A stretch of DNA of 64,000 bases from Planotetraspora kaengkrachanensis (lineage in GTDB: Bacteria; Actinomycetota; Actinomycetes; Streptosporangiales; Streptosporangiaceae), in the NCBI RefSeq assembly GCF_016862895.1, contig NZ_BONV01000053.1:1-64000 (forward strand), in the 5' to 3' direction. This document shows positions 2,522 to 53,274 of the stretch, in pieces. The notes under the pieces are model-generated. The model was not told the DNA's origin. It saw only the letters and a program-made list of their open reading frames with translations, and made no database searches. The position numbers were made by a program, and so were the translations under genes. Position 1 is the first letter of the stretch; each line of letters begins with the position of its first letter.

Positions 2522-4837
2522 CTACTGATTCGACGACGCCGTCCAGACGGCGATCTGCGTGCGCGAGTTAAACCCGAGCTTGTTCAGGATGTTGCGGACG
2601 TGGCTGTCGACGGTGTGCTCGGATATAAACAGGCGCGCGCCGATCTGCTTGTTGCTCAGGCCGTCGGCGACCAGCCGCGCGACTTCTGCTTCCCGCTTCC
2701 CGAGTGGTGCCGCAGCCGCGTCGTCCGAAGCCGCAGCGGCGGCGTGAGCGGGCTCGCCAAGTGCCAGACCGACCGCGGCATCTCGGCTCAGGCGTTTTCC
2801 GGCCTTGTACTCGGCCTCGAACTCGGGTGCCCCCAGCGTCGCTGTCACCGACTCCTCGGCCTGGGTCAGTAGTGGAGCGAGAAATGACATGACGCTTGCG
2901 CCGACGCCCTTTCGCACGGTTTCGGCCGCCCCGAGCAGCCGCGCCGCGAGCCGCGTATGGCCGGAACTTGCGGCGTGGCAGCCCAAGGCGTCGAGCAGGC
3001 AGTACTGTGCCACCCGGTCGTCGATCCGGTGAGCGATCCTCAATGCCTCTGCGAACAGCGGCTTCGACTCATCAAGATCACCGGCGATCAGCGTGGCGAA
3101 ACCCAGGTTCATCAGCATCATGCCGAGGCTGTAGAGGTCACCTGCTTCGCGGCTGAGACGCGCGCCCTCTGACGACGCGGATCTGACCGCGTCGAGATCG
3201 CCGTCGAACAGACCGTTGAGTGCTCGCGACTGGAGCAACATGAGCGTGGCCGGGAGGTCGTCAAGACCCGTTGTGACGGCTTGGGCGTCATCGACCAGGC
3301 GCCTAGTCCTGGTGCGATCACCGGCCATGTTCGCGGCGATCGATGCCAGGGAGAGCGATTGCGACAGCAGACTGAGCTGTCCCGCCTCTTCAGCCGCCGT
3401 CACCGCTCTTTCAAGCGCCGGCCTGGCAGCCGACGGATCGGACTGCAGCACAGCCAGGAATCCACGCATGAAGTAGGCCTGGGCGTGCGCCCGTGGATTG
3501 CCGTCTCCATCCGCGAGTAGCTCATCGAACCACCGAATGCCTTCGCTGGTCGCGCGGGTCATCCAATACCAGCCGAGGGAGTGGGCGAGGGCGATTCCGC
3601 CTGGAAAGTCCTTATGGGTCAGGCATCGCCGAAGGACTGATCGGACGTTGTCGATCTCCAGGTCCATCCATTCGAGCCATTCGGCAAGCCGATATCGAGC
3701 TTCGGCTGCGGATCGCTGACACCTCGATCTGTAGTACTCGGCGCATCGCCGTTGGATGGACTCCTCCTCGCCGGCCTCCCGCAGCTTGAGGCCGGCGTAC
3801 TCGCGCATCGTCTCGTGCAGTCGGTAGCAGGCCAGGCTCTTGGCGTCTTCTTTCATCACCAGGGACTTGTCGACAAGCGACGTCAGCACGTCCAGTGCGC
3901 GCGTCGGAGGCACGTCGTCGGAGGTGCACACCGACTCGATGTCTTCGAGGGTGAACCTGCCGGCGAACACACACAACCGCCTCAGCAGCGTCTGCTCGCC
4001 CGCCGCCAGCAGGTCGTGGCTCCAGTCGATGGTGGTGCGCAGCGTTTGGTGACGAGGTAGCGCGGCGCGGCCTCCCCCGGTAAGCAGCCCGAACCGGTCG
4101 GTCAGGCGATCGAGGATCTGCTCGACGGTGAGGACCCGTGTCCTGACGGCCGCCAGTTCGATCGCCAGCGGCAGCCCGTCGAGGCGACGGCACAGATCGA
4201 CCACGGCCGCCTGGTTCGCGGCGGTCAGCTGGAACCTGCCCGATCCGGCCGCGGCCCGTTCCGCGAACAGCATGACCGCCTCGTTCTCTCGTAACCGCGC
4301 GAGAGACGCGGCCGCGTGAGCCGAAGGCAGTTCCAGAGGTGGGACGGGGACCACATGCTCGCCCGGCACCGACAGCGGCTCCCGGCTGGTGGCGATCACG
4401 CGTACACTCGGTGCGGCCCTCATGATCTCCGTCATGAGCCGAGCGGCCGCTTCGAGCAGGTGCTCGCAATTGTCCATCACCAACAGCAGCTTCTTGTCCC
4501 GCAGGTACGCCCGCAGATGGGCCAAGGGTTCGGTCGCGGCCTGGTCTCGCAGGTCCAGGGCCGCCGTGACGACGTCGCCGACCCGTGCGGGATCGCGGAC
4601 CTCGGCGAGCTCGACCAACCACGCGCCGCCGGGGAACCCGCGTCCGAGATCGGTCGCCATCCGGAGCGCGAGGCGTGTCTTGCCCACCCCACCGGGCCCG
4701 ATGAGGCTGACCAGGCGGGCCTGGGTGAGCTTCTTCCTGACTTCTGCCAGCTCGCGGCGGCGGCCGATGAAGCTGGTCACTTCGGCCGGCAGGTTGCCGG
4801 AGGGGCGTGGGGGTCTGGCCATCGTTGCCATGGACAC
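2522..4837 (-). CDS. AAA-ATPase / LuxR-type transcriptional regulator
   Basis: A protein of 771 residues. After a short N-terminus ending NLPAEVTSFIGRRREL comes an NTPase module with P-loop GPGGVGKT (residues 47-54) and Walker B LLLVMDN (117-123). A helical, TPR-like middle follows, then a C-terminal LuxR helix-turn-helix (about 705-771) with KREAEVARLVADGLSNKQIG and SEHTVDSHV. This is the common actinomycete ATP-dependent LuxR regulator architecture. GTG 4837 is the first start; ATGs at 4831 and 4822 are alternatives. It is divergent from the oxidoreductase at 4961 with about 120 bp between them, so that gene is the likely target. Inducer unknown. Confidence 0.9.
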   Translation of the reverse strand: MSMATMARPPRPSGNLPAEVTSFIGRRRELAEVRKKLTQARLVSLIGPGGVGKTRLALRMATDLGRGFPGGAWLVELAEVRDPARVGDVVTAALDLRDQAATEPLAHLRAYLRDKKLLLVMDNCEHLLEAAARLMTEIMRAAPSVRVIATSREPLSVPGEHVVPVPPLELPSAHAAASLARLRENEAVMLFAERAAAGSGRFQLTAANQAAVVDLCRRLDGLPLAIELAAVRTRVLTVEQILDRLTDRFGLLTGGGRAALPRHQTLRTTIDWSHDLLAAGEQTLLRRLCVFAGRFTLEDIESVCTSDDVPPTRALDVLTSLVDKSLVMKEDAKSLACYRLHETMREYAGLKLREAGEEESIQRRCAEYYRSRCQRSAAEARYRLAEWLEWMDLEIDNVRSVLRRCLTHKDFPGGIALAHSLGWYWMTRATSEGIRWFDELLADGDGNPRAHAQAYFMRGFLAVLQSDPSAARPALERAVTAAEEAGQLSLLSQSLSLASIAANMAGDRTRTRRLVDDAQAVTTGLDDLPATLMLLQSRALNGLFDGDLDAVRSASSEGARLSREAGDLYSLGMMLMNLGFATLIAGDLDESKPLFAEALRIAHRIDDRVAQYCLLDALGCHAASSGHTRLAARLLGAAETVRKGVGASVMSFLAPLLTQAEESVTATLGAPEFEAEYKAGKRLSRDAAVGLALGEPAHAAAAASDDAAAAPLGKREAEVARLVADGLSNKQIGARLFISEHTVDSHVRNILNKLGFNSRTQIAVWTASSNQ

Positions 4838-26333: not shown

Positions 26334-26362
26334 GGCCTTGGTGTTGCATTTCGACGTGAGAA

Positions 26363-26400
26363 CGGGCCCCTTCCCCATGTGGTGGGAGGAGCCCGCTTTT
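26363..26400 (+). terminator. rho-independent terminator of the PH-like gene
   Basis: CGGGCcCCTTCCCCA pairs imperfectly with TGGGAGGAGCCCG around a short loop and is followed by CTTTT, 30 bp after the stop codon. It also separates the PH-like gene from the convergent RNA array. Confidence 0.75.
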
Positions 26401-26407
26401 CAGAGGG

Positions 26408-26548
26408 TGCGCCCGAGGTCAGAAGCGACGAAGGAAACATAGGCGCTCTATCCAACTGAGCTACAGGGACCAGTGGCCCCCGGCGGGATTCGAACCCGCG
26501 ACCTCCCCATTAACAGTGGAAGTAGCCCTCATCTGCGCACCGGGCACG
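26408..26548 (-). ncRNA. permuted tRNA-Asn(GTT)-like RNA, array unit 4
   Basis: On the minus strand the order is: 5' flank GCCCGGTGCG; anticodon arm TTCCA-CTGTTAA-TGGGG (anticodon GTT); variable AGGTC; T arm GCGGG-TTCGAAT-CCCGC; acceptor 3' strand CGGGGGC(C); loop ACT; acceptor 5' strand (G)GTCCCTG; TA; D arm GCTC-AGTTGGATA-GAGC; then a 3' flank containing CGGGC. The acceptor strands pair fully (wobbles included), so this is a tRNA broken between positions 26 and 27 and closed at the acceptor end. Flanks GCCCG and CGGGC pair across the unit and differ from the other units in a compensatory way. Plus-strand positions: flank pair 26411-26415 / 26541-26545. Confidence 0.65.
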
Positions 26549-26563
26549 TTCTGAAGTTGTGTT

Positions 26564-26706
26564 CCTCCCGAGATCAAGGTGACGGCGGTCGATTTCGATC
26601 GGCCGAAGCCGATTGCTCGCCATGAGCGGCTGGGGACTCTTCGGCGGAGTCGGCCCAGCGGGAATCGAACCCGTGTTGAAGTAACCGCTGTCGTCGCACC
26701 GGGAGG
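26564..26706 (-). ncRNA. tRNA-like RNA lacking the anticodon arm, array unit 3
   Basis: 5' flank CCTCCCGGTGCG. No anticodon arm. A T arm with loop TTCGATT; a long acceptor-like stem CTGGG..GACTC / GAGTC CCCAG closed by a 7-base loop; a D-arm-like GCTC-ATGGC-GAGC. Then comes an extra hairpin ATCGGC-TTCG-GCCGAT, a 3' flank with GTCACCTTGATCT, and CGGGAGG, which pairs with the 5' flank. It has the same order of parts as units 1 and 4 (T arm before D arm). The lack of an anticodon arm argues for a mimic rather than a functional tRNA. Confidence 0.55.
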
Positions 26707-26723
26707 TGCATATGTAGTTGTGA

Positions 26724-26799
26724 CTCCCCGAGTTCGGGAGCGGCACCGGCGTTGTCTTTTTACAGAAAGAGAAGTAGCCGGGGCCTTCGCACCGGGGAG
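26724..26799 (-). ncRNA. shortened tRNA-like RNA, array unit 2
   Basis: 5' flank CTCCCCGGTGCGAAGG, then CTACTTC and a hairpin with anticodon-loop-like CTGTAAA (GTA, Tyr type), and a 3' flank CTCGGGGAG. The flank pair CTCCCCG/CGGGGAG is perfect and carries one more G-C pair than units 1 and 3, a compensatory difference. No T arm or D arm is visible, so it is either deleted or a minimal form. Confidence 0.45.
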
Positions 26800-26816
26800 C
26801 GCATATCAAGTTGTGG

Positions 26817-26952
26817 CCTCCCGAGGTCATGGCGGCGACGGTGACGTAGCGTCCTGGGCCACTAGACGACACCGGCCGAAGCCGGCGGCGGGATTCGAAC
26901 CCGCGTTACCGCTTTGAGAGAGCGAAGCATCCGTTGCCTGCGCACCGGGAGG
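26817..26952 (-). ncRNA. permuted tRNA-Glu(CTC)-like RNA, array unit 1
   Basis: Minus-strand order: 5' flank CCTCCCGGTGCG; anticodon arm TCGCT-CTCTCAA-AGCGG (anticodon CTC, with T33); TAAC; T arm GCGGG-TTCGAAT-CCCGC; acceptor 3' strand CGCCGGC; tetraloop TTCG; acceptor 5' strand GCCGGTG; TC; Glu-type D arm GTCT-..-GGAC; 3' flank with GTCACC and CGGGAGG. All seven acceptor pairs form, capped by a UUCG loop. The D arm is of the Glu type, matching the Glu anticodon, which argues that the two halves belong together. It lies directly downstream of the SMI1/KNR4 gene on the same strand, so read-through transcription is possible. Confidence 0.65.
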
Positions 26953-26992
26953 TACAAAAGAGACGGTAGCGGAGCGATATTCCGCGCGCATT

Positions 26993-53140: not shown

Positions 53141-53274
53141 GAAAAAGATCCTAGTCGCGGGATTCCCGCCGGGTCTCAGGGCCGGCGCCGGGCGCCCGCC
53201 TCGCGTCAGGAGCTCACGTCTCCTGAGGGAATGCGGGCGCTCGACCCGGCCTGCGCCGACCGGCCAGGCGCGCG

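Follow-up and report, generated by a model that had tools for sequence, protein, structure and literature searches.

Probable YrlA-like Y RNAs in a tandem array of permuted tRNA-like units from Planotetraspora kaengkrachanensis

Y RNAs are held by the Ro60 protein, the bacterial form of which is Rsr, and a review title reportedly words the Y RNA as a 'gate'. In the circularly permuted tRNA genes of algae and archaea the two halves are swapped, and the products are processed to real tRNAs that keep the anticodon. In the portions of the literature available to us, the Y RNA is presented as a circular permutation of a tRNA (PMC11472068); the arms of YrlA, its D/psi modification by tRNA enzymes and its contact with PNPase are described (PMC8394870); and some mycobacteria are predicted to carry yrlA (PMC9569102). 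Those portions, which do not take in the primary bacterial Y RNA papers, contain no description of actinobacterial Y RNA arrays or of an anticodon arm in them.

The window studied here is a 64,000-nt stretch of the P. kaengkrachanensis genome, and positions 26408-26952 of its minus strand comprise four tandem units (Table). Each starts with a CTCCCGG-like sequence and GGTGCG, each has a CTCGGG-like 3' end that pairs with this start, and a Ro60-type enclosing stem is present in all four. As a sequence-only reading of this DNA had proposed, units 1 and 4 carry the parts of a tRNA in permuted order: anticodon arm, T arm, acceptor 3' strand, cap loop, acceptor 5' strand, D arm. The arms could be parsed in both, and both acceptors pair at 7/7 positions (CGCCGGC/TTCG/GCCGGTG in unit 1, CGGGGGC/CACTG/GTCCCTG in unit 4). 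The break falls at the boundary between D arm and anticodon arm (26/27), where that reading had placed it, and this is the point at which the Y stem enters. The enclosing stem itself and a link with rsr had both been overlooked. In units of all types, including those that have no tRNA domain, a TACTTC-like motif follows the inner Ro stem, and it forms the 5' side of the anticodon arm where that arm is present. For the TACCGT box upstream of unit 1 we claim no generality, as a loose pattern detects one in just 18 of 79 arrays.

Table. Features of the window array and related phage units (R1, covariance model described in the text).
Feature	Coordinates	Strand	Remarks
TACCGT box 5' of unit 1, possible -10 element	26963..26968	minus
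Unit 1, Y RNA with complete permuted tRNA-Glu-like domain	26817..26952	minus	R1 112.9 bits (unit is in R1)
Unit 1 outer Ro-type stem, CCTCCCGG...CTCGGGAGG		minus
Unit 1 anticodon arm TCGCT/CTCTCAA/AGCGG	26925-26909	minus
Unit 1 T arm	26904-26888	minus
Unit 1 acceptor 3'	26887-26881	minus
Unit 1 cap TTCG	26880-26877	minus
Unit 1 acceptor 5'	26876-26870	minus
Unit 1 D arm	26869-26851	minus
Linear tRNA-Glu(ctc) called by ARAGORN	26881..26948	minus	Ro-stem strand plus half of permuted domain
Unit 2, short Y RNA, small hairpin closing Ro-type stem, no T/acceptor/D arms	26724..26799	minus	R1 44.3 bits
Unit 3, Y RNA, T-arm-like and extra hairpins, no anticodon arm	26564..26706	minus	R1 49.5 bits
Unit 4, Y RNA with complete permuted tRNA domain	26408..26547	minus	R1 128.8 bits (unit is in R1)
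Unit 4 anticodon arm TTCCA/CTGTTAA/TGGGG	26521-26505	minus
Unit 4 T arm	26499-26483	minus
Unit 4 acceptor 3'	26482-26476	minus
Unit 4 cap CACTG	26475-26471	minus
Unit 4 acceptor 5'	26470-26464	minus
Unit 4 D arm	26463-26445	minus
Remnant of rsr leader and first codons; hairpin gcgggctcctccc...ggaaggggcccg	26340..26396	minus	Compared with own C4 locus and four Planotetraspora loci
Gordonia phage VanLee unit, annotated tRNA-Arg	L280:1204-1275		R1 107 bits
Streptomyces phage GiJojo unit, annotated tRNA-Arg	L282:1269-1343		R1 58 bits
Xanthomonas phage 10KY502B unit, annotated tRNA-Thr	L285:2705-2772		R1 93 bits
Brevundimonas phage Kikimora unit, annotated tRNA-Ser	L286:2491-2565		R1 98 bits

One TROVE (Ro60) gene was found in the genome, on contig C4 (51.8 bits), and directly upstream of this rsr lies a paralogous four-unit array with the same unit order. 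The encoded Rsr is 85-89% identical to the Rsr of four Planotetraspora species. We examined 80 named actinobacterial rsr loci, the best-scoring of 338 found. Upstream units are present in 79 of them, and 71 carry two or more. The only locus with no unit, within 1997 nt upstream, is that of Microbispora hainanensis (L015); by eye, its positions 1300-2000 look like a group II intron-type reverse-transcriptase gene that ends just before rsr. In one locus (L060) the units stand 1.6-2.4 kb upstream of rsr. Together, the 79 named loci, C4 and the window contain 216 units in 81 arrays, with one to four units per array as cut by our segmenter; these counts exclude L092 and L093, whose units duplicate those of L032 and L014. 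The segmenter accepts doubtful segments (the first of L047 is 238 nt long) and required T.CTTC, which means that any unit without this motif would escape it. Neighboring units are closely spaced, with a median of 12 nt between segmenter-cut ends (132 gaps below 60 nt, L092 and L093 included). Longer arrays also occur: an array with no rsr beside it (L192) holds five motifs, and on a viral contig from IMG/VR (L277:937-1931) six R1 matches stand in a row before rsr.

The association extends to the family. In a set of 120 genomes, 49 contain a unit scoring 70 bits or more, and TROVE was found in 48 of these compared to 7 of the other 71 (Fisher test); conversely, such a unit was found in 48 of 55 genomes with TROVE against 1 of 65 that lacked it. 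Matches in this set were listed down to 2.8e-7, and those of at least 70 bits all lie above that level. When the 58 clusters of this set were read by hand, 49 lay within about 2.2 kb of a TROVE match and nine did not.

Two other features recur near these loci. In the leader that separates the final Y RNA from the start of rsr, the likely ribosome-binding site is covered by a hairpin (L008:5531-5580, with counterparts at this position in relatives). Such a hairpin, at least 8 bp long, was present in 46 of 74 leaders, compared to 23 of 74 shuffled ones; this is no more than suggestive, and rsr translation may be controlled in this way. In L046 (293-2430) and L056 (2221-2552) the Y RNA array and rsr directly follow ordinary tRNA genes, as they probably do in L033 (359-2033), where the model matches are partial.

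We next consider whether the proposed structure is real. Folded singly, units 2 and 3 were more stable than shuffled sequence (z = -3.00 and -3.62), and units 1 and 4, the two for which the sequence-only reading had described a tRNA order, were doubtful by its own comparison of fold energy with shuffles (z = -1.58 and -0.80). Single-sequence folding is thus not decisive, and the structure is settled instead by covariation in 60 units. These units were chosen by hand (alignment A1) and are the source of covariance model R1; A1 omits 14 of 59 TAGCTC-type and 9 of 22 Glu/Gln-type units of named loci, some of them with irregular anticodon arms, as well as the C4 units and L092/L093. Standard pairs fill 94.7% of the cells, compared to 39-50% when partners are slid, and two-sided changes number 341 cells compared to 47-73. 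By helix, pairing reaches 100% in the T stem, 99.6% in the D stem, 99.5% in the outer stem, 97.1% in the acceptor and 90.8% in the inner stem. Two-sided changes occur in the outer, inner, T, acceptor and D helices and at two of the five anticodon-arm pairs. The GGTGCG and CTC.G columns are invariant, and the Ro stem and internal-loop sequence are kept in every aligned unit. We take the conserved internal loop to be the Ro60-binding site, for which the support here is the link with rsr. Unit 1 keeps 30 of 31 core pairs and unit 4 all 31; the median of the 60 units is 30.

A genome search with R1 gave strong full-length matches (44-129 bits) at the window and C4 arrays alone; what came below them scored at most 33 bits and lay mostly at tRNA genes. 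The scores of the C4 copies, which are not in R1, are close to those of the window copies, which are (118.2 against 112.9 bits for unit 1, 128.8 against 128.8 for unit 4). R1 also matches 79 of the 80 rsr loci, 49 of which gave units to the model.

These data bear directly on the possibility that the array is merely what independent deletions have left of ordinary tRNA genes. ARAGORN, by calling a linear tRNA-Glu across unit 1, would seem to favor such an origin. However, a permuted tRNA domain with the same order of parts could be parsed in 133 of the 216 units across the 81 arrays, and this recurrence in homologs together with the two-sided changes across helices refutes it; we regard the probability that remains as negligible.

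The anticodon arm required separate treatment. RNAalifold, run on the 60 units, gave a consensus of 33 pairs in which this arm is unpaired, probably as a result of a shift of its register by one between unit types in the alignment. We call the arm on the strength of a per-unit test and pair counts rather than of RNAalifold. Of the 133 parsed units (not restricted to A1), 86 could be scored; the other 47 have a weaker acceptor or T helix or too short a linker, and mostly belong to the type that has no anticodon arm. An arm of 5 bp and a 7-nt loop, with at least four of the five pairs, was found in 74 of the 86, and among those 74 U33 occurs in 65 and A38 in 64, in a search slightly favoring U33. 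With this bonus removed and the two duplicate loci included, 78 of 90 units had the arm, compared to 39 +/- 5 in shuffled linkers; perfect arms numbered 58 compared to 7 +/- 3, U33 was present in 86% compared to 24%, and A38 in 87% compared to 23%. In the untouched 60-unit alignment 80-82% of anticodon-arm cells are paired, rising to 85% once a gap had been moved manually in some rows, whereas pairing the same strand with the 3' linker, as a continuous helix would demand, reached at best 48%. Pairs of the anticodon stem change on both sides (C-G/G-C, A-U/U-A).

Within this arm, the triplet at 34-36 is variable. GTT is found in 14 of 52 elongator-type units and the rest are scattered; the 12 Glu-type units have CTC (5), TTC (1) or other triplets (6); and unit 1 shows CTC, TTC and GCA within Planotetraspora. 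Because the triplet varies while the arm persists, we conclude that the arm is kept and the decoding identity is not.

The sequence-only reading had held that each D arm matches the amino-acid type of its anticodon. For unit 1 this stands: its D arm TCGTCTAGTGGCCCAGGACGC (21 nt) recurs unchanged in one tRNA-Glu(CTC) gene of the same genome, and its body is closest to tRNA-Glu. For unit 4, said to be Asn-type, it fails, as the best body matches are Arg and Thr tRNAs; Asn is the best body in none of the 14 GTT-loop units, among them that of the window, although this test is limited by its use of P. kaengkrachanensis's own tRNA set as the yardstick for all species. Beyond the window the match holds in part for Glu-type units with an anticodon arm, of which 11 of 12 have tRNA-Glu as best body and 6 of 12 a Glu anticodon, and not for the others, where body and anticodon agree in 6 of 62 compared to 4.6 expected (p = 0.31). 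Units with TGGTGTAA D arms are termed 'Gln-type', and the best match of their bodies is not the genome's tRNA-Gln. The D arm of unit 1 and the Glu-type bodies suggest that a genuine tRNA-Glu was either the ancestor or a template for correction. In a Xanthomonas phage, too, a Glu-type unit (CUC loop) and then an elongator-type unit (GUU loop) precede a Ro60-like gene. The window's pair is therefore not unique, and this recurrence is the best point in favor of the earlier view of unit 4.

Could the units be permuted tRNA genes that are circularized and spliced into working tRNAs, as the sequence-only reading had offered as one option? When units are de-permuted, ARAGORN does call a tRNA in 79 of 137 parsed (L092/L093 duplicates included), and the genome encodes two RtcB homologs. 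However, both RtcB genes map to other contigs, C50 and C12, and so lie beside neither array, and ordinary Glu and Asn tRNAs are present. A conserved anticodon matching the body, as in a functional permuted tRNA gene, was found only in part, in the Glu-type units mentioned above. Moreover, anticodons drift within the genus, and the units carry a conserved Ro-type stem and internal loop of their own. We therefore consider splicing into tRNAs very improbable. The other option of that reading, tRNA mimics, agrees with YrlA-like Y RNAs that carry a permuted tRNA as their effector domain, and its statement that the molecules cannot be charged follows from their closed acceptor end.

Nor do standard tRNA searches see only broken halves here, as had been expected; ARAGORN instead reports the linear tRNA-Glu listed in the Table, which is false on the present reading. 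The Rfam tRNA family scores 29.1 bits at 26880-26949, against a gathering score of 29. ARAGORN calls a tRNA in 30 of 80 regions of 700 nt upstream of rsr, among which at least those of L046 and L056 also contain real tRNA genes. Elsewhere in the window (53183-53261) it calls a tRNA-Val(cac) that is absent from a covariance search of the genome and is probably false.

The window array differs from its C4 paralog in having no rsr. Downstream of unit 4, resemblance to rsr loci ends after a mutated first few codons; the start codon has become ACG (26357-26355) and the gene body is missing. Judged by its sequence, the array formerly had an rsr, of which the leader and the mutated start remain. It is 74-79% identical to the rsr arrays of Planotetraspora, which are 84-96% identical among themselves, and it is about equally close to those of Microbispora (74-76%). 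Thus, it is either an old copy or one acquired from a relative. Its flanks match different places in congeners, on contigs other than those of the congeners' arrays, and no array match was found beside those places.

Eight further loci of at least 70 bits in the family likewise have no nearby TROVE match. Counting the window, eight of these nine orphan loci belong to genomes that carry TROVE at another place, and in the ninth, L198, the rsr is truncated. With six Rsr proteins as queries, tblastn detected the rsr start in L198 and weak matches in the other orphans, the best in L195 (73 residues, E 0.001); the contigs of L192 and L199 end within 1.6 kb of the array. This pattern fits a supply of Y RNAs in trans, although it does not prove it. 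A possible new partner gene 3' of one orphan pair (L194, 591 aa) was rejected: it belongs to no family, has no notable solved relative and reads as a membrane protein.

An array that has lost its rsr may instead have fallen out of use, being not yet decayed or not transcribed. The destroyed start codon, the lack of an array match beside the flank-matching places in congeners, and the truncated rsr of L198 are all in keeping with such a relic. However, at 74-79% identity units 1 and 4 still keep 30-31 of 31 core pairs, indicating that structure was conserved over most of the divergence, and we consider a relic unlikely.

Units of the same kind are found in phages. Four phage units are annotated as tRNA genes (Table). 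The gene that follows bears a Ro-like or RNA-binding label in three of these phages and is called hypothetical in 10KY502B. In GiJojo, the Ro-like gene lies inside the phage tRNA cluster. A fifth phage, Xanthomonas phage Olaya, has a three-unit array (L284:2252-2871) before a 439-aa 'hypothetical' gene (2910-4229) that matches TROVE and vWA_Ro60; the host of Olaya is a proteobacterium.

A refinement of the Y RNA reading is that Rsr-held RNAs absorb or report tRNA-cleaving enzymes of host or phage, acting as decoys or sensors of anticodon nucleases. The frequent anticodon arm would suit this role, similar arms are seen in alignments of units from the Gordonia, Xanthomonas and Brevundimonas phages, and a competitive-inhibitor role for YrlA has been suggested by others in the accessible text of PMC7790460. 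Against it, the free variation of the triplet means that no single nuclease specificity is kept, the RNAalifold consensus leaves the arm unpaired, and the same text reports that the tRNA-like domain of Salmonella YrlA is not cut by an anticodon nuclease. We hold this idea as tentative, with the odds against it. In a broader and similarly speculative form, a branch of Y RNAs that copies the whole tRNA, anticodon arm included, would provide exchangeable Rsr-held baits, with arrays traded with phages and orphan arrays adding baits in trans. It is likewise doubtful, if conceivable, that the units offer different faces (Glu-type, elongator-type, anticodon-arm-only, T-arm-only) to tRNA-cutting or tRNA-modifying enzymes.

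Taking the evidence together, we believe with good confidence that the array consists of four YrlA-like Y RNAs built to be bound by Rsr, and that the window copy probably supplies the C4-encoded Rsr in trans. Direct support comes from sequence, structure by covariation, association with rsr and the rsr remnant; we infer transcription, processing, Rsr binding, docking and action in trans. Because the spacers are short, the four Y RNAs are probably made as one transcript and then cut into single RNAs. The Rsr ring would bind each unit through the conserved stem and the internal loop GGUGCG.AG ... UGAYCUCGGG. What lies beyond the stem would be an exchangeable effector module: a permuted tRNA in units 1 and 4, a T-arm module in unit 3 and a bare hairpin in unit 2. 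If published YrlA is a guide, this tRNA-like part may dock on PNPase, be recognized by tRNA-binding enzymes and help to gate the ring. That the window array most likely serves the C4-encoded Rsr is made probable by its having lost rsr while keeping the RNA structure. Against the Y RNA reading as a whole it counts that the Rfam YrlA threshold is missed, that units 1 and 4 by themselves fold no better than shuffles, and that the array's own rsr is lost, leaving room for an undecayed relic.

Such arrays fall into an annotation gap, since those scanned miss the Rfam cut-off, four phage records list units as tRNA genes, and ARAGORN calls tRNAs in some of the regions upstream of rsr. The modular, multi-unit form beside nearly every actinobacterial rsr examined would provide a natural set of variants for studying the roles of the arms and action in trans.

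The closest described relative is YrlA (RF02553; Salmonella RNA in 6CU1), which shares the Ro-type stem and the permuted T, acceptor and D arms with a closed acceptor. YrlA is the best Rfam match of unit 4, at 43.7 bits against a gathering score of 69; the C4 copy reaches 46.1 and the best relative 57.9, reported matches span 32-58, and the cut-off was missed in all 19 array-bearing sources scanned. The array units differ from YrlA in having a separate anticodon arm rather than the continuous helix of the Rfam model, which has no anticodon hairpin, and in coming in tandem with different modules. With the algal and archaeal permuted tRNA genes they share the order of swapped halves, but they are not expected to become tRNAs. 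The RNA repair operon rsr-yrlBA-rtcBA of Salmonella, as far as the available text of PMC7790460 describes it, likewise has tandem Y RNA genes beside rsr; by contrast, the actinobacterial units precede rsr and usually number one to four, RtcB is here on other contigs, and the window copy has no rsr. The likely mode of action is that of the Deinococcus Rsr-Y RNA-PNPase complex (RYPER), described in the accessible parts of PMC8394870 and PMC7790460, with the Y RNA as tether and, in the word of the review title, as gate, although the modules differ and the role of PNPase was worked out in Deinococcus rather than in actinobacteria. Set beside these systems, the tandem array, the kept anticodon arm and the lost partner rsr look like new variations on a known type of Y RNA.
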